From the IMG/VR virus record IMGVR_UViG_3300046009_000615, positions 1-25,099 of that record: 25,099 nucleotides of DNA; one strand, given 5' to 3'. A program made the position numbers and the translations under genes. The DNA is from a virus. The notes beneath the pieces are model-generated. The model saw nothing but the letters and a program-made list of their open reading frames with translations. It searched no databases and had not been told where the DNA came from. Of this stretch, positions 4,924 through 25,099 are shown one piece after another (position 1 is the stretch's first letter; each line of letters begins with the position of its first letter).

Positions 4924-6839
4924 ATAACTATCTGCCCACTGACTATCAAAACTTCATTGCCACATCTCGCTATGCCCGATGGCTTGATAGTGAAGGGCGT
5001 CGTGAGACTTGGGCTGAGACCGTTGGTCGATACATGACCGAGGTTGTGGGTCATAAGATTGAACGGAGCACAATGGCAGAGATTGCCAATGCGATCCTGA
5101 GCCTTGAGATCATGCCCTCTATGCGAGCCATGATGACTGCTGGCCCTGCTCTTGAGCGTGACAACACCGCTGGCTACAACTGCTCCTATCTGCCTGTGGA
5201 TGATCCCAAGTCCTTCGATGAGGCCATGTTCATCCTTCTGTGTGGCACTGGTGTGGGCTTCTCTGTGGAGCGTCAGTATGTCAGTAAGCTGCCTGATGTT
5301 CCTGATGAACTGTTCAACAGCGAAGATGTCATCGTTGTCCACGACAGCAAGGAAGGTTGGGCTAAGGCTCTTCGTAAACTGATCGCCATGCTATATGCTG
5401 GTGAAATCCCCAAGTGGGATACGTCCAAGGTTCGTCCTGCTGGTGCAAAGCTGAAAACCTTTGGCGGTCGAGCCTCTGGCCCCGGTCCCCTCGAAGAACT
5501 CTTCCGCTTCGTCATTGAGAAGTTCAAGGTTGCCAAGGGTCGTAAACTCTCTTCTATCGAGTGCCATGACATCATGTGCAAGATCGGGGAAGTTGTGGTT
5601 GTTGGTGGGGTTCGTCGTTCTGCGATGATCTCTCTGTCCAACCTCTCGGATGATCGGATGCGTCATGCCAAGTCTGGTAGTTGGTGGGAAGGCAATGGTC
5701 AACGTGCTCTGGCTAACAACTCTGTGGCCTATACAGAGAAGCCTGAGGCTGAGACCTTCATGCGTGAATGGCTGTCTCTGGTAGAAAGTAAGTCAGGTGA
5801 ACGTGGAATCTTTAACCGTCAAGCCAGTCAACGCCAAACCGCTCGCAACGGTCGTAGAGACACATCTTACGAGTTCGGGACTAACCCTTGTAGTGAGATT
5901 ATCCTCAGACCCTATCAGTTCTGCAATCTTACTGAAGTGGTTGTTCGGGCAACAGATACTATCGAAAGCCTAGAACGTAAGGTTCGTCTGGCTACCATCC
6001 TTGGCACGATCCAGTCTACTCTGACACACTTCCCTTATCTGCGGAAGATTTGGCAGAAGAACACTGAGGAAGAGCGTCTGCTTGGTGTGTCTCTCACTGG
6101 CATCATGGATAATGAAATCCTGAGTGGTGCCCGTGGTCTTGTTGATAATCGTGTGTCCCTTGCGGATGTCCTGACGAGGCTCAAGAATGTTGCTATCGCT
6201 ACTAATGCTGAGTGGGCTGAACGCCTTGGTATCCCTGCTTCTGCTGCTATCACCTGTGTTAAACCCTCAGGCACAGTCTCTCAGTTGGTTGATTCCGCTA
6301 GTGGCATTCACGCTCGCCACTCAGCCTATTATATTCGGACTGTCCGTGGCGATAACAAAGACCCTCTGACGCAATTCATGCGGGATCAAGGTATCCCCAA
6401 TGAGCCTTGCGTTATGAAGCCTGATAGCACTACTGTCTTCTCATTCCCTCAGAAGTCTCCCGAGGGTGCGATCACCCGCAACGATATGACTGCCATTGAA
6501 CAACTTGAGTTGTGGCTGACATACCAACGCTACTGGTGTGAGCATAAACCCTCGATCACTGTCACTGTAAGAGACCATGAGTGGGTGAGTGTTGGTGCTT
6601 GGGTCTATGAGCACTTTGATGAGATGTCTGGTGTGTCGTTCCTTCCTCACTCGGATCACACCTATCGTCAGGCACCTTATCAGGAGTGCAGCAAGACCGA
6701 CTACGAGATGCTTTTGTCGGTGATGCCTGAGCGCATTGATTGGGCAAAACTCTCTGACTACGAGAAAGAAGATACATCCAAAGGCACCAGCACATTTGCT
6801 TGCGTTGGTGGTAGCTGTGAGATCGTGGACCTGACATGA
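4920..6839 (+). CDS. nrdJ: Class II (adenosylcobalamin-dependent) ribonucleotide reductase
   Basis: The 639-residue enzyme converts ribonucleotides to deoxyribonucleotides. It matches the monomeric class II (RTPR-like) type: MPSMRAMMTAGPALERDN (65-82), Cys88 in YNCSY, GTGVGFSVE (109-117), the finger-loop NPCSE with the predicted thiyl Cys324 and Glu326, Cys335 in FCNL as partner of Cys88, and a C-terminal CxxxxC pair (C628, C633) that would re-reduce the active site. There is no ATP-cone domain and no NrdB partner gene beside it. It needs a B12 cofactor, so the host must make or import it. It shares ATGA overlaps with mazG upstream and a tiny basic gene downstream. Confidence 0.93.
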   Translation: MNNYLPTDYQNFIATSRYARWLDSEGRRETWAETVGRYMTEVVGHKIERSTMAEIANAILSLEIMPSMRAMMTAGPALERDNTAGYNCSYLPVDDPKSFDEAMFILLCGTGVGFSVERQYVSKLPDVPDELFNSEDVIVVHDSKEGWAKALRKLIAMLYAGEIPKWDTSKVRPAGAKLKTFGGRASGPGPLEELFRFVIEKFKVAKGRKLSSIECHDIMCKIGEVVVVGGVRRSAMISLSNLSDDRMRHAKSGSWWEGNGQRALANNSVAYTEKPEAETFMREWLSLVESKSGERGIFNRQASQRQTARNGRRDTSYEFGTNPCSEIILRPYQFCNLTEVVVRATDTIESLERKVRLATILGTIQSTLTHFPYLRKIWQKNTEEERLLGVSLTGIMDNEILSGARGLVDNRVSLADVLTRLKNVAIATNAEWAERLGIPASAAITCVKPSGTVSQLVDSASGIHARHSAYYIRTVRGDNKDPLTQFMRDQGIPNEPCVMKPDSTTVFSFPQKSPEGAITRNDMTAIEQLELWLTYQRYWCEHKPSITVTVRDHEWVSVGAWVYEHFDEMSGVSFLPHSDHTYRQAPYQECSKTDYEMLLSVMPERIDWAKLSDYEKEDTSKGTSTFACVGGSCEIVDLT

Positions 6840-6979
6840 GTAAAGCAATCGGCACTATGACTTGGAAGCCCTCTCCAAAGCACAAGAGGACTTCTCAGGC
6901 TACCTTCAAAGCCAGTCATAAACGTTCGTCTAGCAACAAGCACAACAGGAAGAAACTGTATCGTGGTCAAGGACGATGA
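6836..6979 (+). CDS. 47-residue highly basic protein
   Basis: The ATG at 6836 overlaps the reductase stop and the TGA at 6977-6979 overlaps the phoH start (both ATGA). The product starts MSKAIGTMTWKPSPKHKRTS and ends KKLYRGQGR. It contains 12 Lys/Arg-rich clusters plus several His and no acidic residue, so it should bind nucleic acid or another acidic partner. It is predicted to be disordered. The function is unknown; the exact double coupling argues that it is translated. Confidence 0.65.
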   Translation: MSKAIGTMTWKPSPKHKRTSQATFKASHKRSSSNKHNRKKLYRGQGR

Positions 6980-7683
6980 TTGAAGAGAAGCCTAAGAGGA
7001 CCAAGAGGCAGACCAAGTATAAGGGGGCAGAAGTGGAGGGGGCGGCGAGTGTCGTCTCCCTCGTCCCTCTCAATGACCGTCAGAGGCTCTATATTGACGC
7101 TATACGGGCACATGACCAAGTGATCGTCTGTGGATACTCTGGGACAGGGAAGACCTACATAGCGGCCACTGTAGCGGCTAACATGTATGCTACCAAACAG
7201 ATAGACAGGATCATCCTCACTAGACCTAACGTGTCCGTGGGAAAAGACCTTGGCTATCTGCCCGGAGACCTCAACGAGAAGTTCAGTCCTTGGGCTGCTC
7301 CAGTTCTTGAGGTATTGATGCAACAACTGGGAAAAGGTGTAGTGGATACTGGCATCAAGAATGGAAACATCGAGATGGCACCACTATCTACAATGAGGGG
7401 AAGATCGTTCAAGGATGCTTTCATCATCTTGGATGAGGCTCAGAACACTTCAATCCCTGAGATCAAGATGTTTCTGACAAGGATCGGTGAAGGCTCCAAA
7501 GTCATCGTCAATGGTGACATCAAGCAGTCTGACATCAATCAACAGTCTGGTCTGTCGAAGATCATTCACCTAGTGAAGAAATACCGAATGGACATCCCTG
7601 TGATCGAGTTCACTGTAGACGACATCGTTCGTAGTGAAATCTGTAAACAGTGGATCATCGCCTTTGAAGGAGAAGGTCTGTGA
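6976..7683 (+). CDS. phoH: PhoH-like ATPase
   Basis: The 235-residue P-loop ATPase has Walker A GYSGTGKT (53-60), the TRPNVSVGKDLGYLPGD block (82-98), Walker B with FIILDEAQN (149-157) and the GDIKQSD sensor loop (180-186). These are hallmarks of the PhoH family, related to superfamily 1 helicase cores. PhoH is widespread in marine phages; its role is unsettled, with RNA helicase or nuclease-linked activity proposed. The basic N-terminal tail (KPKRTKRQTKYK) may bind nucleic acid. The start overlaps the stop of the basic 47-residue protein, and its stop overlaps a GTG start downstream. Confidence 0.93.
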   Translation: MIEEKPKRTKRQTKYKGAEVEGAASVVSLVPLNDRQRLYIDAIRAHDQVIVCGYSGTGKTYIAATVAANMYATKQIDRIILTRPNVSVGKDLGYLPGDLNEKFSPWAAPVLEVLMQQLGKGVVDTGIKNGNIEMAPLSTMRGRSFKDAFIILDEAQNTSIPEIKMFLTRIGEGSKVIVNGDIKQSDINQQSGLSKIIHLVKKYRMDIPVIEFTVDDIVRSEICKQWIIAFEGEGL

Positions 7684-7913
7684 GCGATCAAATCAACAGC
7701 CCACCACATTACAATACAGGTGGGATCGAGTGCATTGACTACCTCAAAGATAACATGTCCTTTACAGCCTACAAAGGTTATCTGGAAGGGAACTGCAAGA
7801 AGTATCTGCACCGATGGCGATACAAAGGCAAGCCTCTCGAAGACCTCAGGAAAGCCCACTGGTATCTCGAACGTCTGATCCTAGAGATCGAGACCGAGGG
7901 CAACGATAGATAA
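7680..7913 (+). CDS. DUF3310 family protein
   Basis: The 77-residue protein carries the DUF3310 pattern: SPPHYNTGGIECIDYL at the N-terminus, then YLEGNCKKYLHRWRYKGKPLEDLRKAHWYLERLI. This family is common in phages and is sometimes annotated as nucleotide-kinase-like, but no P-loop is present here and the activity is unproven. The start is GTG at 7680, overlapping the phoH stop (GTGA). It is the last gene of the left arm and is followed at once by the terminator. Confidence 0.85.
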   Translation: MSDQINSPPHYNTGGIECIDYLKDNMSFTAYKGYLEGNCKKYLHRWRYKGKPLEDLRKAHWYLERLILEIETEGNDR

Positions 7914-7920
7914 AAGAAAA

Positions 7921-7960
7921 CCCCCTTCAGGTTGTCACGCCTGAGGGGGGTATTTTTATT
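7921..7960. terminator. Bidirectional intrinsic terminator between the convergent arms
   Basis: The stem CCCCCTTCAGG (7921-7931) pairs with CCTGAGGGGGG (7940-7950) around the 8-base loop TTGTCACG, with one G-U wobble. On the + strand it is followed by TATTTTTATTT; on the - strand the other flank (7911-7920) reads TTTTCTTTTA. It should stop transcripts from both sides: from the + gene ending at 7913 and from the - gene ending at 7956, whose stop codon lies in the T tract. Confidence 0.9.
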
Positions 7961-8186
7961 TGTCGTTCTTGTAGATGTCGAGGATGTCTCGTTTGATTTC
8001 CTTGATGTCTGCTCGCATCTCTTGCATAGCTTCGCGGTCTTCTTCTCGCCTCTCTTCTCTTGTCTTGATCTCAGACTGTAGAAGTTGGATTTGTTTTTGA
8101 TTGGTAAGGACCGTTCTGACGAGCCATGTCATCGCACTAAACACCGTTGCTATAATGCCTGAAACAATGTAATCCAAGTAGTCCAT
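7956..8186 (-). CDS. Membrane-anchored coiled-coil protein, holin candidate
   Basis: The 76-residue protein has one transmembrane helix (about residues 6-27, IVSGIIATVFSAMTWLVRTV) followed by a long charged coiled coil (TNQKQIQLLQSEIKTREERR onward to residue 72). It is the last gene of the lysis block, just after the spanins. Position and a single transmembrane span suggest a holin or a lysis regulator; XhlA-type haemolysins also pair a helix with a coiled coil but in the opposite order. Its ATG overlaps the stop of the o-spanin by one base (TAATG). Confidence 0.75.
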   Translation of the reverse strand: MDYLDYIVSGIIATVFSAMTWLVRTVLTNQKQIQLLQSEIKTREERREEDREAMQEMRADIKEIKRDILDIYKNDK

Positions 8187-8401
8187 TATTCATCCTCGCA
8201 GCCTGCATCAAATCCTACAACAAGCCGTCTTCCTGTCGAGAGGGAACGAGGGCCACCATCTTCTATTAAGGCATCTACATGGTCATCTATCAGCGGTGAT
8301 AGGCCATCACAGATTGGGCTATTCTGTTTGAAGTTGACGCTGCCGCAAGAACTCACGATCAGCACTAGGGGTATTGCCACTAGGAACCTTGCGAACTGCA
8401 T
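8186..8401 (-). CDS. o-spanin (Rz1-like) outer-membrane lipoprotein
   Basis: This encodes 71 residues from the ATG at 8401; a TTG at 8407 could add two more. The N-terminus MQFARFLVAIPLVLIVSSCG has a basic residue, a hydrophobic core and a lipobox V-S-S-C with Cys19 as the predicted lipidated residue. In Gram-negative phages this lipoprotein pairs with an inner-membrane spanin to fuse the two membranes at lysis. It begins inside the i-spanin frame and overlaps it out of frame by 83 bases, the classical Rz/Rz1 arrangement. It is not Pro-rich like lambda Rz1. Confidence 0.82.
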   Translation of the reverse strand: MQFARFLVAIPLVLIVSSCGSVNFKQNSPICDGLSPLIDDHVDALIEDGGPRSLSTGRRLVVGFDAGCEDE

Positions 8402-8570
8402 TGTCAATCCTCTTCGTTGTGTCTATGTAGTTCTGTTGCTGTTGAATGGTCAGGTCTTTCTTGGCTATACTTTTTCCATACTGGATCATTCCGAAGGAAG
8501 TCAAGATAGCAACCAAAACACCGCCCACAATAAGAATTGGCTTCAGTCCAACAAGTTTCAGTATCCACAT
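8319..8570 (-). CDS. i-spanin (Rz-like) inner-membrane protein
   Basis: This encodes 83 residues starting MWILKLVGLKPILIVGGVLV; the ATG at 8570 overlaps the endolysin stop (ATGA), so it is preferred over an upstream in-frame ATG at 8600. It has a transmembrane helix at about 9-27 and then a periplasmic helix (KKDLTIQQQQNYIDTTKR). Together with the overlapping lipoprotein it forms a spanin complex that disrupts the outer membrane in the last lysis step. The identification relies on topology, neighbours and overlap, because spanins diverge strongly in sequence. Confidence 0.82.
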   Translation of the reverse strand: MWILKLVGLKPILIVGGVLVAILTSFGMIQYGKSIAKKDLTIQQQQNYIDTTKRIDNAVRKVPSGNTPSADREFLRQRQLQTE

Positions 8571-9043
8571 CAGGCTTTCCTCTTCAAGCCAGCAAGACAC
8601 ATTTGCTTTTCTTCTTCTCTACGAGTGACCAGTCCGGGGAGAGTGATCCCCTTGGCCTTCGTCCATCGTGGGAGTTCATTACAAGCCCCTACAAGGTCTC
8701 CTGCATTTGCTTTACGGACCATAGTGGACTTGCAGAAGGCCCCTACACCAACATTGTAAGTGAAGGAAAGGAAGGCCCCATAGGTGAGATCAGGGATGTC
8801 ATCTGGCCTACCAAGACACTTTCTCATCCCTCTCTCATGCTCTACAAGGCTCTCCTTGAGCATATCCTTGCACTCTTCCTTGGTGTATCTGTCTCCCAGT
8901 TTCACACCCTTGGTCTCTCCAAAACAGACAGTGGGGATACCAACAGGATCGAGATAAGCCACGGTTCGCAGACCCTCAAAGCCCCCTACAAGAGAGACAA
9001 GGACACCCGCTAGTATGGTATTCTTTGCTAGTCTGCTTGCCAT
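8570..9043 (-). CDS. SAR endolysin, GH24 phage lysozyme
   Basis: The 157-residue muramidase cleaves peptidoglycan. The N-terminus (residues 9-21, TILAGVLVSLVGG) is a weakly hydrophobic Gly/Ser-rich signal-anchor-release segment, as in phage P21 and P1 lysozymes, so export would use the host Sec system. The catalytic triad E23-x8-D32-x5-T38 (FEGLRTVAYLD then PVGIPT) is intact. The TYNVGVGAFCKSTMVR block is typical. Several Cys (40, 58, 76, 103, 118, 149) may control activity by disulfide exchange. AAGGTG lies upstream of the ATG. Confidence 0.93.
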   Translation of the reverse strand: MASRLAKNTILAGVLVSLVGGFEGLRTVAYLDPVGIPTVCFGETKGVKLGDRYTKEECKDMLKESLVEHERGMRKCLGRPDDIPDLTYGAFLSFTYNVGVGAFCKSTMVRKANAGDLVGACNELPRWTKAKGITLPGLVTRREEEKQMCLAGLKRKA

Positions 9044-9052
9044 GATTACACC

Positions 9053-9742
9053 TTATCGGAATACAACGAAACAGTTGATGGCACTATCTGCTGCTGCACC
9101 AGACGAAGAGGCCGCTACTTGCAGCTTGAAAGACCCGGCTGCAAAGTCATACGGTTCGATAACTCGACCAGCAGCGGCAAGATTGGTCGTGGTGTGAGTA
9201 GATGTCGAAACCGTATAATTGGCATCAGGCATTGCTGTAGTGAATGTTACAGTGTAGTTTCCTGTGCTATTCTTGGTTACGCTTGCCACATTTCCTGAGC
9301 CATCAATAGTTCCAGCCGCATTAAACCTTGCCCATGCCCTCGCTGCATAGATAGGGGCAGAACCAGTCGCATTAAGTTTGACAGGGATGTGGTCATCTAC
9401 AGCGGCACTTGTTGGGATCGTCGTATCATTATCATTCGATGCAATGGTGTCCGAAGATGTAACAAGCGTAGTAGCCGAGATTTCACTCGTTGTGATAGCA
9501 GAGTTAGGAGTAAACTTGCTACCAGTCTCGTCTACAGTTCCAAGGATGATCCAAGCACTATTTGCCTCATTCCGCTTCTTGATCTGATTGTTAGCAGTAT
9601 CATACCAAAGCATATTCGCAAAGGTAGTAGAGGGCGCAGTAGCATTGGAATTAGTGCTTACAATAGCTGCGAGAGCATTGTTCAGATCAGTTCGGAAAGA
9701 AGGTGCAGATTGGTTGTCAATCACATAATCATGGGTTGCCAT
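9053..9742 (-). CDS. Tail-fibre-like protein
   Basis: This 229-residue protein has an N-terminal attachment-like segment (MATHDYVIDNQSAPSFRTDL, then an LWYDTANNQIKKRNEANSAW block) found at the start of many phage fibre proteins. The middle is Thr/Ser-rich and low in complexity, and the C-terminus (ARAWARFNAAGTIDG... AMPDANYTVSTSTHT) resembles receptor-binding tips. It lies directly after the tail-tip gene and before lysis, the usual place for fibres. The ribosome site AAGGA precedes ACCCGAC-ATG, a leader shared with the tail chaperone gene. Receptor unknown. Confidence 0.75.
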   Translation of the reverse strand: MATHDYVIDNQSAPSFRTDLNNALAAIVSTNSNATAPSTTFANMLWYDTANNQIKKRNEANSAWIILGTVDETGSKFTPNSAITTSEISATTLVTSSDTIASNDNDTTIPTSAAVDDHIPVKLNATGSAPIYAARAWARFNAAGTIDGSGNVASVTKNSTGNYTVTFTTAMPDANYTVSTSTHTTTNLAAAGRVIEPYDFAAGSFKLQVAASSSGAAADSAINCFVVFR

Positions 9743-9753
9743 GTCGGGTATCC

Positions 9754-12294
9754 TTAGTTATACTGGACTATCGCATCAAGAGCACTGATACTCGGTGTCA
9801 CGTTGGTTGTATTGCTTGTCAAAACAATCTTGAATTGGACAGCACGAGCATAGAAATCACCTGCCCTGAATTGTTGCCAAGCAGACCAAGTTGGAGTCCC
9901 AACAGGGTTATCAGTGGTGGTGGAAATGTAAGTGACGACATTGGTATCATCAAATTGTGCTGCACCAGTGAAGTCATCAAAGTTACCAGCAAGACTGTCA
10001 AACAATCCAGAGATGTCATCCCACAAGATCGTTGTAGTAGCAAACCGATCTGTTTCTAGATCAATCCTAGCACGAAGTTTTCTAGCAGTCGTTGTGTCAA
10101 TGTAGTTCGAGAACTCGTAAGTAGCGGTGAAGGGAGGAGTTCCTGAAACATTGGTGATACGGAGTTGATTGCTAGTAACAGAGCAATCAGTTTTTGCGCC
10201 AGAGAATGTTGGGTCTTCCGTCAGGGTCGTGGTAGTAGTAAATCCTTGCAAGGCATTTGCCGGAATGACAACAGAGGTGTAGTTGACAGATTCATTACCA
10301 GTCTTGTCGTAAGCCCGGATCATATAAGTTCCCGGCTTTGTTGGGACAGACACCGAGTTACCCGGACGAGGGACTTTTTCTACAGAAGTGGTGGCATTAG
10401 CCCAAGTGGCACCAGCCTCTTCCGTGGCATGTCTGATCCTGTAAAAAGACAAATCTGGTGCAGAAACAGGCTCCCACTCAAGATGGACAGTAGCGCCATT
10501 GATTTCCCCCCTCAAGTTTGTTACGTTGGCAGGGGCATCAGAAAGACCTGACACTTGAAAGCCTGTGATTGTTGTCCAATCGCTCTTTACACCCAAGAAG
10601 CTATAGGCTCTGGCCCTGATGTCGTAGGTCTCGTCAAGCGTATCAAGAAGTTCAAATACACCAAGATCTCCAGTCCCCATAACAGTCCAATTGCTTTCCG
10701 ATGACAACTTTGCTTGGACCTCTACCCTTTCAACGTCAAAGGGAGTAAGAGAAGAAACTGTTGCATAGATCACATTGGTGAGATGTTCGTTGATGATCCT
10801 TACATCTGAATCCAAACTAAGGCCAATAGCAGGTGCCAAGAAGGGGTTCGGCAGGGTAGTATTGTTCGCCTCAAAGACAGCGCCAGTGACAGCCGTGAAG
10901 ACAGCAGAAGAGGTTTCTCTAAGAACCATATTGACTTGAAGATCAAGGCCGTCTGTCAGGCCAAAACTCCAAGAGGTGACTTCAAAAGGTTTGTCTGTCC
11001 AACCAAAACGACTGTTGGTGAGGAGGATGTTATCTCCAACCTGCACAGCAAAGGCCCTGAGACCAAATGCAGCCGAGACAGTCAGTTGCTCTCTATTCCT
11101 GTTCAGGGCAATACGAGCGATCCTCTGAGCCGTCAGAGATGAACTGGTGAACGGCAATCTGTAGTCGAGGGTGTTGACAATCCCATTGTCCGCTGCAACG
11201 AAAGCAGGGTCAGACACTTCAGGGTAGTCAGCCTCTTGCCAATCAGATTCAGAACCTCTGAACGTTCCTTTGACCGTATTGAAATTGTCACGACGAGAAT
11301 GACGAGTAGAAAGACTGATGCCAGAACGAAGGTCATCCTCATTGAACGACAATGAGGGCACAAGATAGGAAGCAGCCTTCATCTTCCATTTGCCCTGAGA
11401 ATACCAGAACAAACCACCCATCGAGGTAAGAATATCCGTGATGATCTGGTTAGGGCCAAGACTAGTAACGAAGGCACCATTACAGGTGTAACGATCTTCA
11501 CCCTCTACAGTCTCTTCACAAATGTCAGCCGCCACTTCAACGAGACTGTCATCAATCTTGGAGGAGTTCTGAGCAAACCCATAATCAGAGATCAAATAGT
11601 CCCTAAGGCACAAGGCAGGATTGTTTGACCAAGCAGTTGTTGCAGTCCGAGGATCATAAACCTTCTTGCCACGGATCACCGCAGAGACAGAAGGGATACC
11701 ATTCGGGAAAGCATCTTGGTTGTATTTCAGTCGAATGTAGAGATAGGCAATACCTTGAAGCCTGTGTTGGCTAGTCCAACGGCCATCAGTTAGTGTAGCA
11801 GTCTCACTGAGAAGATCAGGATCGGCAGTCTGAGTGTCAGTGCCAAGATACTTCTTGATCCTCACATAGCCATTGTAGCGAGAGGGAGAAGTGACATTGC
11901 CATTACCATCAAGGGTAACAACCTCATCGTTCAGATAGATGTCAACGTAGCTGTCGATCTCATGCCCAGCGAAAGCAATGATACGATGAAGGAACTCGTT
12001 CTTGCCACCAGTCGAGGCATCATACACACGGACACCACCAACGCGAGTTTCACCGTAGATGATCTGATGGTCTAGAGCAGCACCACTTTCACCTTGGATG
12101 CTGTAGCCATTAGAACTGCCAATGCTAGGCTTGGGAGTAAGGGCATTGAGAGCCGCACCCATAGCCGTAGATACAAGAAAGTGCCCCATGACAGTGCCAG
12201 ACAGAGAACCCATCCAAGCACCAGTCATCAAGGTTCCTGAGAGTGCAGCGGTCCCAGCAGAGAGCGCCCCCATAATGGCAGAGATAAAAAACAT
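9754..12294 (-). CDS. Tail-tip / host-specificity protein with fibronectin III-like domains
   Basis: The 846-residue protein is the large distal tail gene after the tape measure, in the position of lambda gpJ. Residues 4-50 form a Gly/Ala-rich hydrophobic N-terminus; residues about 75-460 look like a TipJ-type hub domain (DHQIIYGETRVGGVRVYD, YLYIRLKYNQDAFPNGIPSV, CLRDYLISDYGF). Two fibronectin III-like modules follow at about 500-582 and 586-678 (DAPANVTNLRGEINGATVHL). The C-terminus is beta-rich. It likely caps the tail and contacts the host receptor. A GAGGG ribosome site precedes the ATG. Confidence 0.85.
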   Translation of the reverse strand: MFFISAIMGALSAGTAALSGTLMTGAWMGSLSGTVMGHFLVSTAMGAALNALTPKPSIGSSNGYSIQGESGAALDHQIIYGETRVGGVRVYDASTGGKNEFLHRIIAFAGHEIDSYVDIYLNDEVVTLDGNGNVTSPSRYNGYVRIKKYLGTDTQTADPDLLSETATLTDGRWTSQHRLQGIAYLYIRLKYNQDAFPNGIPSVSAVIRGKKVYDPRTATTAWSNNPALCLRDYLISDYGFAQNSSKIDDSLVEVAADICEETVEGEDRYTCNGAFVTSLGPNQIITDILTSMGGLFWYSQGKWKMKAASYLVPSLSFNEDDLRSGISLSTRHSRRDNFNTVKGTFRGSESDWQEADYPEVSDPAFVAADNGIVNTLDYRLPFTSSSLTAQRIARIALNRNREQLTVSAAFGLRAFAVQVGDNILLTNSRFGWTDKPFEVTSWSFGLTDGLDLQVNMVLRETSSAVFTAVTGAVFEANNTTLPNPFLAPAIGLSLDSDVRIINEHLTNVIYATVSSLTPFDVERVEVQAKLSSESNWTVMGTGDLGVFELLDTLDETYDIRARAYSFLGVKSDWTTITGFQVSGLSDAPANVTNLRGEINGATVHLEWEPVSAPDLSFYRIRHATEEAGATWANATTSVEKVPRPGNSVSVPTKPGTYMIRAYDKTGNESVNYTSVVIPANALQGFTTTTTLTEDPTFSGAKTDCSVTSNQLRITNVSGTPPFTATYEFSNYIDTTTARKLRARIDLETDRFATTTILWDDISGLFDSLAGNFDDFTGAAQFDDTNVVTYISTTTDNPVGTPTWSAWQQFRAGDFYARAVQFKIVLTSNTTNVTPSISALDAIVQYN

Positions 12295-19642: not shown

Positions 19643-20650
19643 TTAGGCGACGATGGTCGCGAAGAAGGCACCCATTTCGGCAGCAACGACCTTGTGGGCA
19701 TACGCCATGTTGGCTTCGAGCATTTCGGCAATGCCCTGAACGCGCAGGAAGTCACCCGTATACGAACGGATGTCGATGCCATAGCCCGACGCATTGTCCA
19801 GTTCGTTCCAAGTGAACGTGTAGCCAGCCGAGGGAACCATCAGGCCAGCCGAACGGGGACGGTAGTAGAGAGCAGCCGACTTGCCACCGATGAACGAGTT
19901 CGACTCCGTGTCACCCTCTTTCGCCGTGTTCTTGACCGACTCCATGACGAGGAACTCTTCCACGCCAAAGATTTCAGCCAGCTTGGCATCCGTGACAAGA
20001 GCGGTGTTCGTAACCGTTGCGCCACCATTCAGACGATCAAGGATGTCCGGGTGGTTGACGAGCACATCACGAACTTCTTTGCCAACAACCATGACGTTCG
20101 GCTTGAAGCCACCCGACTTGAGTTGGACAGTCCGCATCGCAGTCGTAACGTCAACGATGGGGGTCGAAGCCGTATAGTCCGACCACTGCTTGACTTGGTT
20201 GGTCGTCGGGGTGCCAGCAACACCAGTGTAATCCGTGGACCACACCGAAGCCTTGAAGAAGCTGTCAGCCCACTTGATCTCACGGTCGATGAGCAGTTGG
20301 TGCGTCAGCATCTGAGCGCCAGCGGCACGGATGTCGAGAGCGGCATCTTCGTTGGCAAGCGTCTCGAAGTCAAAGTCCGTCGAGATCGAGTAGACCTTCG
20401 CGGTGTAGCTGTCGCTCGACACAGCCATGCCAACACGGGGCGACATGGTGCGGGGAGCGCGCTCTTGCACTTGGCCCGTGCGGTTGAAGTGCTCACGGTC
20501 ATACTCATAGTATTTGTCGGTTTTCTTCGACACCGGAACATTGGGGAACACACGATCCGCGATAAACGACGTAGAACTTTGCAGGAAAGCAATCGTGATG
20601 TTGGTAAGCGGCTGATCGATATGAACAGCACTCGGGGTGAGCATAGCCAT
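19643..20650 (-). CDS. Major capsid protein
   Basis: The 335-residue protein builds the head shell. ADRVFPNVPVSKKTDKYYEY near residues 31-50 and the FDFETLANEDAALDIRAAGA helix are typical of an HK97-fold capsid group, and the FKPNVMVVGKEVRDVL and ALYYRPRSAGLMVPSAGYTF blocks fit the P and A domains. There is no N-terminal scaffold (delta) domain, in keeping with a separate scaffold-like gene upstream. Codon use is distinctly biased (few rare codons), as expected for high expression, which also creates a long antisense open frame. An AAGGAA site precedes the ATG. Confidence 0.87.
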   Translation of the reverse strand: MAMLTPSAVHIDQPLTNITIAFLQSSTSFIADRVFPNVPVSKKTDKYYEYDREHFNRTGQVQERAPRTMSPRVGMAVSSDSYTAKVYSISTDFDFETLANEDAALDIRAAGAQMLTHQLLIDREIKWADSFFKASVWSTDYTGVAGTPTTNQVKQWSDYTASTPIVDVTTAMRTVQLKSGGFKPNVMVVGKEVRDVLVNHPDILDRLNGGATVTNTALVTDAKLAEIFGVEEFLVMESVKNTAKEGDTESNSFIGGKSAALYYRPRSAGLMVPSAGYTFTWNELDNASGYGIDIRSYTGDFLRVQGIAEMLEANMAYAHKVVAAEMGAFFATIVA

Positions 20651-21052: not shown

Positions 21053-21802
21053 TTACTTCTTGTAGGTTTCTTTGAGAAGGGCTTTACCTTCTGCGGTTTT
21101 GATAACGGCAGAGTAACCTTGCTGGAAGGTCACACCTTTTTCAGCCGAATAGGCTTTAGCCAGTGCTTCGAGTTTGGCATCGGCGGAACCGAAATCACCG
21201 TTCGCATCCGACTTACCAACTTCCGACATCATGCCTTCAAACAGTTTGTCAGCAGCACGAAGCATTTCGATAAGTTCTTGGTCATCACCAATCGACTTCA
21301 GCAGTTTACCGCGTTGGTCAGCCGTTCCCTTGAAATTGGGCAGCACCTCGTCGGCACGTTTGCGGAGTTCTTCAGCCGCACGGGCTTTCTCGACCTCTTC
21401 TAGTTTCTTCAGGATCGGAGCGGGGATGCTCGACTTCGCAATCATCTCACCGTCAACTTCGATCATCTCAGCGGCCTTCTCAACCGAACCCTTCTTGAGT
21501 TCTTCGATCTGGGCTTGAAGCGAAGCAATTTCCGACTTGAGGAGTTCGCACTCAGCTTTGTAGGACTTACGAGCGGGCTTCTTGTTGCCCATCATTTCTT
21601 CCTCGTCATCCTCCATCTCGTCGTCCATCATCTCATCTTCGCTCATTTTCTTATCGTCATAAGCCTTGAGAAGTTCGTCTTCAGTTTGGATTTCATTTTC
21701 CATTGGGGTTTCCCTTTTGAACAAAGCGACGGTTGCCGATTTGTTGGCAGGAGAATCTACCAGCGACACCTCGTCAAGTTCCAGATCAAGGAGTTCATTC
21801 AT
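21053..21802 (-). CDS. Scaffold-like acidic protein carrying the C-terminal piece of the maturation protease
   Basis: The 249-residue protein has three parts. Residues 1-30 (MNELLDLELDEVSLVDSPAN, then KSATVALFKR) look like the last conserved segment of XkdF-type prohead proteases, normally in the same chain as the protease. Residues 40-72 are extremely acidic with Met (MSEDEMMDDEMEDDEEEMM). Residues 80-150 are coiled coil, fitting a scaffold. The ATG at 21802 overlaps the protease stop by 8 bases within an AATG x3 repeat. A second ATG at 21703 (Met34) has an AAGGGA site and would give a pure 216-residue scaffold, like lambda Nu3 within gene C. Confidence 0.75.
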   Translation of the reverse strand: MNELLDLELDEVSLVDSPANKSATVALFKRETPMENEIQTEDELLKAYDDKKMSEDEMMDDEMEDDEEEMMGNKKPARKSYKAECELLKSEIASLQAQIEELKKGSVEKAAEMIEVDGEMIAKSSIPAPILKKLEEVEKARAAEELRKRADEVLPNFKGTADQRGKLLKSIGDDQELIEMLRAADKLFEGMMSEVGKSDANGDFGSADAKLEALAKAYSAEKGVTFQQGYSAVIKTAEGKALLKETYKK

Positions 21803-21806
21803 TCAT
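21794..21806 (-). repeat. AATG microsatellite at the protease/scaffold junction
   Basis: The - strand reads ATGAATGAATGAA: three ATGA/AATG units holding the protease's Met-Asn-Glu-stop and the next gene's Met-Asn-Glu. Removal of one 4-base unit gives one continuous frame (REKMNELLDLELDEVSLVD). It is either a genuine coupled junction, a slippage mutation, or a length error in assembly. Confidence 0.75.
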
Positions 21807-22910
21807 TTTCTCCCGCTTTGCACGGCCCCCAATACTGAAGGCTCGTAGTTCTCCAGATTTGACCTTCTGCCAAACTGCATCATCGTAGACTTTACAAGCT
21901 ACAATCCAGCCTTCACGGTCACTCTGGATGCCAAGGGCGTCTGCGATCTCTTTCGTCAGAGGAAGGGAGTGAATAAACTCTCCAACCTTACCGCCCATGT
22001 GCATTTCTTTTGTCACCCTAGTAGAAAGCATGAACTCAGTAGCAGCTTTCATCAGGGTTTCAGGTTTGATGACATCACCTTGAGAGTCTACAACAGGGAC
22101 ACCCTTTTCAGTGATAACGGAGGCCCATCCCCAGACAATACGCTGATCGTCATCTGCTTTGAGGATTTGGCCTTGAATACTTGCTTTGGTCAGATCAGAC
22201 ACCGAAGTTCCAGCCTCCCACATACGACAAGACCAATACCTAGCCGATGTCTTATCTTTCGCAGTATCGCAACTATGACGAGAACGGAAATTGGCTCTGG
22301 CTTCTGGATCATCCCTACGGATTTCCATGTTGGGATCACCGAAGGTCACACGCTTGACCCTATCGCCATCCTTGACGTAGACACCAAACTTTTTGGTTGA
22401 TCCAGAAGGAAGGCGGAAAGGTTTATCCAGAGGGACTGTCTTGCCTTGATATTCCGCTTTCTCGACGCCCTTGGTAGCCATAGGATGCCCTTCTGGAAGA
22501 AGATCAGTGTCGTGCTTTCCAGAGCGGAACTTTCCGTTGCGAATGGCACGGAGGAAGTTGTTCACCCGAGCCATAGCCCATTGTTCAGGAGAAGAGACGT
22601 TGGGACGGACACTTTCAGGATTGGTCCTATAGGCCCCAACGCCCCTATTATAGACTTGGCGAAGAGTTGCAGCAGTCACCCTACCCTTATCGCCATGCTG
22701 TTCATTGTGCTCTGTAGCCTTGTCTCTGAGGGTCTGCATATCGACCTTCTCGACTTGCTTGGAGCGAGACCATGCAGCAGCCATAGCCCGACCTTCATCC
22801 TGAGTATCCTCATAGACAGAATTGAAGACGTTCCTGAAAACGCTTTGCTGCTTGGCAGAGAGTTTGTCCCTTACAGCTTTAGGGAGATCGGAATTGGCTG
22901 CATATGGCAT
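21795..22910 (-). CDS. ChaB / XkdF-type capsid maturation protease, C-terminus cut off
   Basis: The 371-residue protein is composite. Residues 1-55 (MPYAANSDLPKAVRDKLSAK...) form a ChaB-like domain; 110-140 (ARVNNFLRAIRNGKFRSGKH) and 165-232 (FGDPNMEIRRDDPEARANFR, YWSCRMWEAG) form small phage domains often attached to head proteases; 245-365 form an XkdF-like serine protease core with WGWASV (260-265), H304 in KEMHMGG and S359 in RAFSIGG. The conserved EVSLVD-PAN end is missing here and opens the next gene instead. It probably processes scaffold or capsid during head maturation. The start at 22910 lies one base from the upstream gene's stop. Confidence 0.8.
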   Translation of the reverse strand: MPYAANSDLPKAVRDKLSAKQQSVFRNVFNSVYEDTQDEGRAMAAAWSRSKQVEKVDMQTLRDKATEHNEQHGDKGRVTAATLRQVYNRGVGAYRTNPESVRPNVSSPEQWAMARVNNFLRAIRNGKFRSGKHDTDLLPEGHPMATKGVEKAEYQGKTVPLDKPFRLPSGSTKKFGVYVKDGDRVKRVTFGDPNMEIRRDDPEARANFRSRHSCDTAKDKTSARYWSCRMWEAGTSVSDLTKASIQGQILKADDDQRIVWGWASVITEKGVPVVDSQGDVIKPETLMKAATEFMLSTRVTKEMHMGGKVGEFIHSLPLTKEIADALGIQSDREGWIVACKVYDDAVWQKVKSGELRAFSIGGRAKREKMNE

Positions 22911-22912
22911 GA

Positions 22913-23383
22913 TTACGAGTCTGCTTCGATGCCGATGAACACGAGACGAACCGTGGCACCCGTGGCACCCGGATCAGCCGAGATGACGATCTCAACTTCA
23001 TCCGCAGTGGTGGTAGCACCCGTCGAGGTGGTCGAACCCGGACCCATCGCACGGACACCGTTACAACCGAAGATACCTTTGTAACCAGTCGTGTTGAGGG
23101 CAATCGAGGCACCATCAACATACGAGTCAGTATCAGCGTCATCGCCGATGTCATTCAGGTTGACAGCGTTGGTCGAGGCGGTCGTGACTGTCACGCTGAC
23201 AGCCATCGGGATGAAATTGACGGGCATACCAATCGAGGCTTCCTTGCCAGTCGTAGCGCCGTTGGCAACCGTGATCGAGGTCGTGTAGGTGGACAGCTTG
23301 AAACCTTCGGTGCCAGACGAAAGGACAGTCATGCCGTCCCGAACCTTGACGTTGCGGAGCAGTTTGTTCCAGAGATTAATCAT
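22913..23383 (-). CDS. Virion-like protein, unknown role in head module
   Basis: The 156-residue protein starts MINLWNKLLRNVKVRDGMTV and is beta- and Thr/Ser/Ala-rich with many GAT/TVT turns (SITVANGATTGKEAS, AVSVTVTTASTNAVNLND). Two adjacent GTGGCACCC copies near the 3' end encode GATGAT. There is no enzyme motif. Its codon bias resembles that of capsid genes, suggesting a structural protein made in quantity, perhaps a decoration or head-fibre base. AAAGGAAATGAGTT precedes the ATG. Family not recognised. Confidence 0.68.
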   Translation of the reverse strand: MINLWNKLLRNVKVRDGMTVLSSGTEGFKLSTYTTSITVANGATTGKEASIGMPVNFIPMAVSVTVTTASTNAVNLNDIGDDADTDSYVDGASIALNTTGYKGIFGCNGVRAMGPGSTTSTGATTTADEVEIVISADPGATGATVRLVFIGIEADS

Positions 23384-23406: not shown

Positions 23407-23727
23407 TTAATTGAGTTGAGGGATGATAAGGACAGTCTCGTTGGTATTGTTGGGGAAGGTCTCTACCGTAGTGTCTGCGTAAGTCACTTCAAACTCAACG
23501 TAGTAGGTTCCCGGAGTGTCTGTATCACCTGCTTGCCAGTCATACTTGACAATACCACCAGCAGCATTTACGATGGTCATCGGTTCATCAATGACAACTG
23601 ATCCACCAACTGCTTTCATATGGAACCTGACAGAAGCGCCATTGATATTGACAGCAGTTCCGTTAGAGTCTTGCAAGGTTGCTTGGATTGACGGAGAAGT
23701 ATCAGATTGCTTGATTGTAAAGGCCAT
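23407..23727 (-). CDS. BppU/DUF2479-like Ig-fold structural protein
   Basis: The 106-residue protein (FTIKQSDTSPSIQATLQDSN, AVNINGASVRFHMKAVGG, IVKYDWQAGDTDTPGTYYVE) has the pattern of the BppU N-terminal domain, an immunoglobulin-like module of phage baseplate or fibre proteins. Here it stands alone and lies in the head module, not at the tail tip. It overlaps the repeat-protein gene upstream by 26 bases, suggesting coupled expression of partners. A GGAG site lies about 9 bases before the ATG. Confidence 0.75.
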   Translation of the reverse strand: MAFTIKQSDTSPSIQATLQDSNGTAVNINGASVRFHMKAVGGSVVIDEPMTIVNAAGGIVKYDWQAGDTDTPGTYYVEFEVTYADTTVETFPNNTNETVLIIPQLN

Positions 23728-25099
23728 CTATTTCTACTCCGTTTGGTGTTCCAGAGACAACAGCGTTGTTTGGTGTTCCAGTGAGATTGGTCTGATTGAA
23801 GGTCTTGCTTAGTGCAGTCTGATTAAAGGTTTCTGTAATCAGGGTCTTGGTGGTTGAGTTTGAAGTAATCGAGACCACTCGTCTTTGGCTAGTATATCCA
23901 ACACCAGTTGGTGCAATGCCAGCCACAACAATCACAGAAACAGGTGGCTGTATTGTTTTACCTGCATTGATCTGAGGAGCGATTGGTGCTATGTTCAGAT
24001 TGGCAGCAGGAGGTTGGACAGAAGCCCCAACGAAGATTTGGGGTTGTAACGCTACAAGGGTAATGTTTGCAGAAGGAACTGCGACTGATTTACCAGACGA
24101 AACAGAAGGGGTTTGGACAACCAGACTTATGTCTACGACGGGAATTAGGAAGGACTTGCCAGCATTGATGCTTGGTGCTTGCCCTGAGAAAGTTACATTC
24201 GCAGGAGGAACATTGACTGTCTTACCAGCGTTGATTACAGGTGCGTTAGCAGCAACCTGAGTGTCAGCAGCAGGGACAAGAACAGACTTACCAGATGCAA
24301 CAAAAGGTGCTTGTGCAGCAATTTGTATATCAATAGCAGGGACTGAAACACTCTTGCCAGCACTTACAGTTGGTGCTTGAGCAGTAAGATCAATGTTTGC
24401 AGATGGGACAAAAACAGCAGTGGTGATGTTGACGAAAGGTGCAACTGCTGCAATCGCAGTGTCAGCAGCAGGAACAAAGACGCTCTTACCTGCACTTACT
24501 GTCGGGGCTTGAGCCGCAACAGAGATATCTGCAAAAGGAACAAGGACAGATTTGCCTGCGTTGATAGCTGGTGCTTGTGCTGCAATAGCGATATCAGCAG
24601 CAGGGACAAGGACTTGCGTAGTAATGCTGACAAAAGGCGCTACAGCAGCAATCGCAATATCGGCAAACGGGACTGCAACTGACTTGCCTGTGTTAACAGC
24701 AGGCGCTTGTGCTGCAAGTTGGATATCAACAGCAGGAACAAGAACAGATTTGCCTGCACTGATAGCAGGGGCATTAGCAGCAATCTGAGTGTCAGCAGAG
24801 GGGACAGAGACAGAAGCCCCCGTGGAAATAGCTGGGGCTTGTGCAGCAATCAGGATATCTGCGGCAGGAACATCGACACGTTTACCAGCATTGATGGTTG
24901 GTGCATTAGCTGTAATCGCAGTGTCAGCAGCAGGCGATAGAATTGCTTTACCAGCATTAATCGCAGGAGCAAAGCCAGCAATGGCGATGTCTTTAGCAGG
25001 AACAGCGACGGATGCCCCCGTTCTGATCGCCGGTGCCAGAGCGGCAAGAGCGATGTCTACGGAGGGAACGTCGATGTTTACCGGCTCGGCTACTACCCC
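23702..25099 (-). CDS. Long 22-residue-repeat structural protein (5' end outside window)
   Basis: The frame is open without a stop from the right edge to TGA at 23704-23702, giving 465 visible residues. About 17 consecutive 22-residue units fill 25066-23945. A typical unit is P-A-A-D-I-A-I-A-A-Q-A-P then A-I-N-A-G-K-S-V-L-V; most conserved are P1, A/S2, D/N4, I/T5, A9, P12, G17, K/A18 and V20. Two units carry ITT instead of AGK. The end switches to an N-x-T-rich tail with TFNQT twice. The alternating hydrophobics suggest a beta-solenoid or fibre. It is probably a head or neck fibre or spike; its neighbour is an Ig-like protein. Confidence 0.82.
   Translation of the reverse strand, partial: GVVAEPVNIDVPSVDIALAALAPAIRTGASVAVPAKDIAIAGFAPAINAGKAILSPAADTAITANAPTINAGKRVDVPAADILIAAQAPAISTGASVSVPSADTQIAANAPAISAGKSVLVPAVDIQLAAQAPAVNTGKSVAVPFADIAIAAVAPFVSITTQVLVPAADIAIAAQAPAINAGKSVLVPFADISVAAQAPTVSAGKSVFVPAADTAIAAVAPFVNITTAVFVPSANIDLTAQAPTVSAGKSVSVPAIDIQIAAQAPFVASGKSVLVPAADTQVAANAPVINAGKTVNVPPANVTFSGQAPSINAGKSFLIPVVDISLVVQTPSVSSGKSVAVPSANITLVALQPQIFVGASVQPPAANLNIAPIAPQINAGKTIQPPVSVIVVAGIAPTGVGYTSQRRVVSITSNSTTKTLITETFNQTALSKTFNQTNLTGTPNNAVVSGTPNGVEIDGLYNQAI
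23945..25066 (-). repeat. 17 tandem 66-bp coding repeats
   Basis: The 66-bp period is visible as TTGCC/TTACC (Gly-Lys codons on the - strand) at 24156, 24222, 24288 and 24354. All units keep frame. Copies are diverged (roughly half the positions vary) yet keep the same protein consensus, so the array is old and selected at protein level and not a recent slippage product. Less regular partial units flank it on both sides. Confidence 0.85.

Follow-up and report, generated by a model that had tools for sequence, protein, structure and literature searches.

A 22-residue tandem-repeat protein from the head gene module of an environmental phage is a candidate modular virion fibre

The window analysed here comprises the whole of a 25,099-bp viral contig from IMG/VR (IMGVR_UViG_3300046009_000615), which ends 15 residues before the start codon of a gene encoding a protein of consecutive 22-residue repeats, hereafter REP. 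We lean towards reading REP as a modular, probably homotrimeric virion fibre that would consist of an anchor, a beta shaft, and a tip, with the head or neck slightly favoured over the tail as its location. The parts of REP and the landmark genes that follow it in the window are:

25076-25099, minus strand: part of the N-terminal region that the window still covers, the 8 residues preceding unit 1 (comparison with the overlapping locus L002, N-terminal HMM)
23702-25099, minus strand: REP gene, tandem-repeat protein; ORF open at the contig end, 465 of 480 residues
23888-25075, minus strand: 18 consecutive 22-residue (66-bp) units, the last degenerate (autocorrelation, shuffles, unit column table)
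23705-23887, minus strand: C-terminal tip region, 61 residues (RRVVSITSN...; C-terminal HMM matches L089/L040)
23407-23727, minus strand: 106-aa BppU_N-domain protein, candidate adaptor (PF10651 above cutoff; first 26 nt shared with the end of REP)
22913-23383, minus strand: 156-aa protein, phrog_36974, no function assigned
21795-22910, minus strand: head maturation protease with a ChaB-like N-terminus (PF14550, PF06150), head-module landmark
19643-20650, minus strand: major capsid protein, E type (PF03864, phrog_1005), landmark

The repeat array and the full-length protein

An earlier note on this DNA, made from the sequence alone, had described at least 17 in-frame 66-bp units together with a unit consensus, and both descriptions were correct, the exact count being 18 and the consensus VxVPxADIxIAAxAPxIxAGKS. 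Self-identity within the array was 0.48 at a lag of 22 residues, 0.50 at 44, and 0.56 at 66, and the full 480-aa protein still gave 0.41 at lag 22. Composition shuffles of REP (n=2000) yielded a maximum over all lags of only 0.134 +/- 0.007 (highest value, 0.165), far below the lag-22 identity, and the 22-residue repeat is thus real. Column analysis of the units revealed that Pro4 and Pro15 are invariant (18/18 units), while positions 1, 3, 8, 10, and 17 are conserved as hydrophobic and alternate with the variable positions 2, 9, 13, 16, and 18. From these alternating columns and invariant prolines we infer probable beta strands that are buried along one side. The combination of alternating hydrophobics with turn Gly/Pro residues that occurs in triple beta-spiral fibres is also present in the units.

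When compared unit against unit, the repeats are ~47% identical in protein and ~55% identical in DNA. At positions where units share the same residue, codon agreement was 0.42 versus 0.37 expected, such that synonymous codons are near-random, and Tandem Repeats Finder detected no DNA array at the REP repeats. Therefore, the repeats are old and have been kept at the protein level; a recent slippage expansion, which was considered as their origin, is ruled out by the DNA-level divergence among units. The C-terminal tip contains short N-rich repeats of ~9 residues, a period read by eye. Scans of the REP gene region for promoters, terminators, and Rfam families returned nothing above chance.

It had been noted earlier that the N-terminus of REP lies outside of the window. 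This is true, although only 15 residues are missing and these are known from an identical copy. Locus L002 carries the complete gene (5382-6824, 480 aa), whose 1398 overlapping nt are identical to the window, and it supplies the absent residues as MLGFSPLAAAPLGDD. Comparison with L002 and an N-terminal HMM placed most of the conserved N-terminal peptide MLGFSPLAAAPLGDDG beyond the window edge, and the full-length protein carries the N-terminal peptide of the REP family, M[LF]GFxPLAxxPLxDDG. The earlier note had also expected the copy number to vary between isolates, which held only at greater distances. The REP of L003 is 95% identical and likewise has 18 units, with 48 synonymous and 24 nonsynonymous site differences separating its codons from those of L002, while the REPs of L005 and L006 are 66% identical over the alignment and 392 aa long, consistent with 14 units. 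Thus, copy number is stable among close relatives and shifts with divergence.

Gene neighbourhood and the BppU_N partner

As the earlier note had placed it, REP lies in the head module ahead of the protease and capsid genes. In L003, a terminase large subunit (PF03237/PF17289) and a portal protein (Portal_Mu) are followed by ORFs of 230, 85, and ~143 aa, a 644-aa repeat protein, a short ORF, REP, and the BppU_N protein, after which both the window and L005 continue with the 156-aa protein, the protease, a 249-aa protein, a cement-like protein, and the capsid protein, which in the window is 59% identical to that of Roseobacter phage CRP-6. The 644-aa protein beside REP has NNVAIGxxAL motifs, and its homologue in L002 matches tail-spike and virion-structural PHROGs. 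Such NNVAIGxxAL proteins were located in L003 (5234-7168, 644 aa) and L006 (2395-4176, 593 aa); judging from the motif rather than a database match, the 644-aa protein is possibly a trimeric adhesin resembling the YadA head. The short ORF between it and REP was located in L002 (5139-5378; ~79 aa, MDYNPTPEEIAKHYSACLDS...). The tail genes of the window lie downstream and include those for the tail tube (PF18906) and the tail terminator, a large ORF that we read as the tape measure, and hub-like and large tail-tip proteins, both of which scored below Pfam cutoffs. The tail tip and a downstream small fibre-like ORF are encoded apart from REP, at 9053-12294. The window phage is therefore presumably long-tailed. 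CRP-6, which has the same gene order, is reported to be short-tailed (PMC6918029).

Divergence within this neighbourhood was highly uneven. Across the divide between the window clade and that of L005 and L006, identity is 66% for REP and 74% for the 644-aa repeat protein, compared to 89-99% for the portal, p230, p85, p143, BppU, p156, protease, p249, cement, and capsid proteins. That fast change is confined to REP and the 644-aa protein fits what would be expected of exposed fibres in contact with the host, without amounting to proof.

The 106-aa partner of REP contains a BppU_N domain (PF10651, 35.2 bits against a cutoff of 23.1). In 11 of the 13 loci examined, the end of REP and the start of BppU share 1 or 26 nt, which suggests that their translation is coupled. 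In the lactococcal phage TP901-1, BppU is a part of the baseplate. The partner gene resembles lactococcal BppU in its BppU_N match, a likeness that concerns the neighbour rather than REP itself, but it differs in having a single domain and in being encoded beside the protease in the head module instead of with the baseplate. Other contexts of the domain are diverse: in tailed viruses of haloarchaea, BppU homologues adjoin the genes for terminase or portal, and the tail region of Bacillus phage vB_BhaS-171 encodes a lipase-like protein with BppU_N fused to it. From these contexts, BppU_N appears to be a general adaptor-like domain, which by itself leaves head versus tail undecided. A separate observation comes from Halorubrum tailed virus 25 (L170, 2605-7645), in which a 1569-aa laminin-G protein directly precedes the BppU_N protein beside the terminase and portal genes; this archaeal virus has the same adhesin-then-BppU arrangement as is found at REP.

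Relatives with shared ends and unlike repeats

Scans with the protease and BppU proteins gathered ~160 loci, and in most of them the gene directly upstream of BppU encodes a protein that repeats in tandem every 22 or 23 residues (a 20-residue period occurs in a few members of the family). An ORF bearing the N-terminal motif was present in 74 loci, some of which overlap the same contig, and in 71 of these the BppU_N gene and/or the head protease comes immediately after REP; of the remaining three, one ends at a contig edge and two (L165/L166) differ. A portal gene was found upstream of REP wherever the locus includes one. Leaving aside the 218-aa proteins of L165/L166, complete members are 266 to 851 aa long. 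The 851-aa member (L033, 853-3405) has a globular insertion of ~200 residues amid its repeats. In L145-L153, which represent another clade, the place of REP upstream of BppU is occupied by other proteins, 265-268 aa in length, that repeat weakly every 20 residues (ASGNLxFTLPFTxSSTAF).

The sole isolated relative that we found is gp57 of Roseobacter phage CRP-6 (QBQ72781.1, 422 aa), which is annotated as a hypothetical protein. It resembles the REP of the window in its tandem repeats, in its position before BppU (gp56) and the protease (gp55), and in having a similar N-terminal peptide, MFGTSPFAAATF, but its repeats are acidic 23-residue units with a 46-residue super-period and no detectable similarity to those of the window. 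The L033 protein connects to gp57 by tblastn (3e-19). In phage records, tblastn found no match to REP as a whole, to the C-terminal region, or to the N-terminal peptide, and a scan of genome contigs for prophage copies yielded 255 pattern matches, none of which was confirmed.

An N-terminal HMM built from the first 20 residues of the 22-residue class was searched against 8323 ORFs. It matched the N-termini of 23-residue-class proteins (L033, 4e-10; L031, 2e-8; L060, 3e-8; L082, 3e-7) as well as those of proteins with GSFxLTGQ-type repeats (L090, 2e-9; L015, 0.005), and among these ORFs CRP-6 gp57 itself was not matched. Similarly, the C-terminal HMM matched the 23-residue-class proteins L089/L040 (E 3-5e-7) and, weakly, L031/L032 (E about 0.5), whereas an HMM of two repeat units matched only the class of the window, with no match in the L015-L017 class. 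Thus, the ends are shared while the repeats are without detectable relation, a pattern for which either shaft exchange or extreme divergence is a possible explanation. In L041, L057, L060, and L082, a conserved C-terminal domain of ~280 aa replaces the short tip. Profile-profile comparison of the 22- and 23-residue classes gave an alignment limited to the N-terminal 17 residues that was not significant (P 0.087), and for this reason we do not claim common ancestry of the two repeat classes. The GSFxLTGQ proteins (L015-L017, EBPR siphovirus 2 gp72, and podovirus ctVRi840) share the 22-residue period of REP, and L015 additionally resembles it in the N-terminal peptide and in having BppU and the protease as neighbours. 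EBPR siphovirus 2 gp72, unlike REP, joins its repeats to what is probably a tail-tip protein, and such repeats may therefore also serve in tails.

A further observation concerns the CRP-6 module. At 6938-8404 and 8781-10550 of its locus (L007), a collagen-like fibre, gp60, is encoded near gp58, and homologues occur upstream of REP in many loci. The gp60 protein has 99 Gly-X-Y triplets with 26 Lys in Y and none in X, and gp58 combines a GT25 part and a PLOD-type glycosyltransferase domain with a 2OG-Fe(II) oxygenase-like part, matching human LH3 (9e-23), procollagen galactosyltransferase 1 (1.5e-5), and the lysyl hydroxylase structure 6AX6 (3e-7). Judged by these matches, gp58 looks like a phage-encoded enzyme for collagen lysine hydroxylation and glycosylation that would act upon the phage's own fibre. 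Genes resembling gp58 were found in 44 loci, 30 of which also have a collagen-like gene in view.

The proposed fibre and its alternatives

In the fibre that we propose, a hydrophobic N-terminal peptide of ~16 residues (M[LF]GFxPLAxxPLxDDG) would dock REP to the virion, and each 22-residue unit would probably fold into two or three short beta strands with Pro/Gly turns between them. Stacking of the units would create a long and narrow shaft, which is most likely homotrimeric if fibres of other kinds are a guide, and which would end in a tip formed by the short C-terminal repeat or, in relatives, by a globular domain. The BppU_N-domain protein, whose translation is apparently coupled to that of REP, is probably its adaptor, and REP would probably extend outward from the head or the portal-neck region and touch the surface of the host or extracellular material. 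Besides the periodicity, the modular ends, the fast divergence, and the gene overlap with BppU, this reading draws on the constant place of REP and on the genes upstream, which are fibre-like too: a repeat protein with tail-spike and virion-structural PHROG matches in the window clade and a collagen-like protein in the CRP-6 clade. More tentatively, the wider family may be widespread and consist of head- or neck-anchored fibres in which the N-terminal anchor persists, and to some extent the C-terminal tip as well, while the shaft between them is exchanged among at least three repeat classes without mutual sequence similarity (VPxADI 22-mers, GSFxLTGQ 22-mers, and TGxPxV 23-mers), with unit number setting its length and a BppU-like protein as the dedicated adaptor.

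Database searches placed REP near no described family. Profile searches of the PDB gave only chance-level matches and no solved fibre relative, and searches of Pfam and PHROGs for the REP family gave no informative assignment, only compositional or weak matches. The whole-protein score for Mucin-like (PF16058) exceeded its cutoff, but with no single significant stretch in P0001 and inconsistently among homologues, and we rejected it as compositional. Phage_head_fibr (PF11133) did not match REP and gave a sub-threshold match only in the 120-aa cement protein. In the literature that was searched, no paper describing the REP family was found, and a lead to VrlC held nothing relevant to REP. Fibres with repetitive shafts are themselves already known.

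AlphaFold monomer models were built for the 22-residue class from 10 sequences and for the 23-residue class from 32, the latter led by the metagenomic relative L128. With pLDDT values of 37.6 and 36.6, respectively, the models are uninterpretable as a fold and contain only short strands and no helix, all at low confidence. Structure prediction, which the earlier note had proposed as a check, thus yielded no usable fold and established neither an ordered nor a disordered shaft. Since an intertwined trimer would give low pLDDT just as disorder would, these predictions neither support nor refute the fibre model. Of the extended beta fibre or solenoid that the note had suggested, an extended, beta-rich repeat protein stands, and the modular ends, fast divergence, and globular C-termini make a surface fibre probable, with a solenoid as the alternative candidate. 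The head spike or neck whisker that the note had offered as its place is a putative location.

The position of a gene in the head module is no proof that its product is located on the head, and REP could be a tail or baseplate fibre, or a receptor-binding accessory, whose gene merely resides there and whose BppU-like neighbour joins the tail tip as in TP901-1. The baseplate domain of that neighbour and the BppU_N-lipase-like fusion in the tail region of vB_BhaS-171 both favour this reading. So do the tail PHROG matches among the genes upstream of REP, a Phage_tail_APC match within the CRP-6 module, and EBPR siphovirus 2 gp72, in which GSFxLTGQ repeats and a probable tail-tip protein are fused. 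However, REP stays between the portal and protease genes in essentially all loci, and the window encodes its tail tip and small fibre-like ORF separately, which make a tail fibre, the chief rival, rather unlikely.

Two further readings dispense with a fibre altogether. Beta-strand-like repeats of this composition could instead form a flexible spacer, and REP might then be a largely disordered, low-complexity spacer or shielding surface polypeptide with no defined fibre fold, as its biased composition (21% Ala, no Cys or Trp) and the pLDDT below 40 in both AlphaFold runs would suggest. We consider this improbable given the strict 22/23-residue periodicity with its invariant Pro and alternating hydrophobics, the maintenance of both periods over many phages, and contents of 13% Val and 9% Ile that are unusual for disorder. 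Lastly, the place of REP directly before the BppU and protease genes is a common one for scaffold genes, which raises the prospect that REP works inside the prohead or in its assembly (as a scaffold, ruler, or ejection protein) and is cleaved or lost upon maturation. This reading is very improbable, because REP diverges fast compared to the head genes, has fibre-like modular ends and tips, and is predicted to contain no helix, albeit in low-confidence models.

If the fibre reading of REP is confirmed, it would put a name to a common unannotated fibre family of environmental phages and account for the recurrent BppU gene beside the head protease. It would also provide natural shafts of differing length (266 to 851 residues) on one shared anchor, a series useful for determining how fibre length and surface chemistry tune adsorption. 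The isolated relative CRP-6 makes the fibre claim directly testable.

Among known systems, two have fibres near the head or portal: the neck fibres of Anabaena phage A-1(L), for which N-terminal anchoring of gp82 was shown (PMC10966104), and the capsid fibres of Agrobacterium phage 7-7-1, for which N-terminal anchoring was postulated (PMC12796354). We liken both to the fibre proposed for REP, and the A-1(L) fibres differ in being built from separate trimeric subunits (gp82/gp81/gp80). Triple beta-spiral shafts of the adenovirus type and of phages have no sequence or structure match to REP, whose unit is 22 residues and whose trimer is putative, but they share with the proposed fibre its overall plan of an N-terminal virion-binding peptide, a repetitive beta shaft, and a C-terminal tip.
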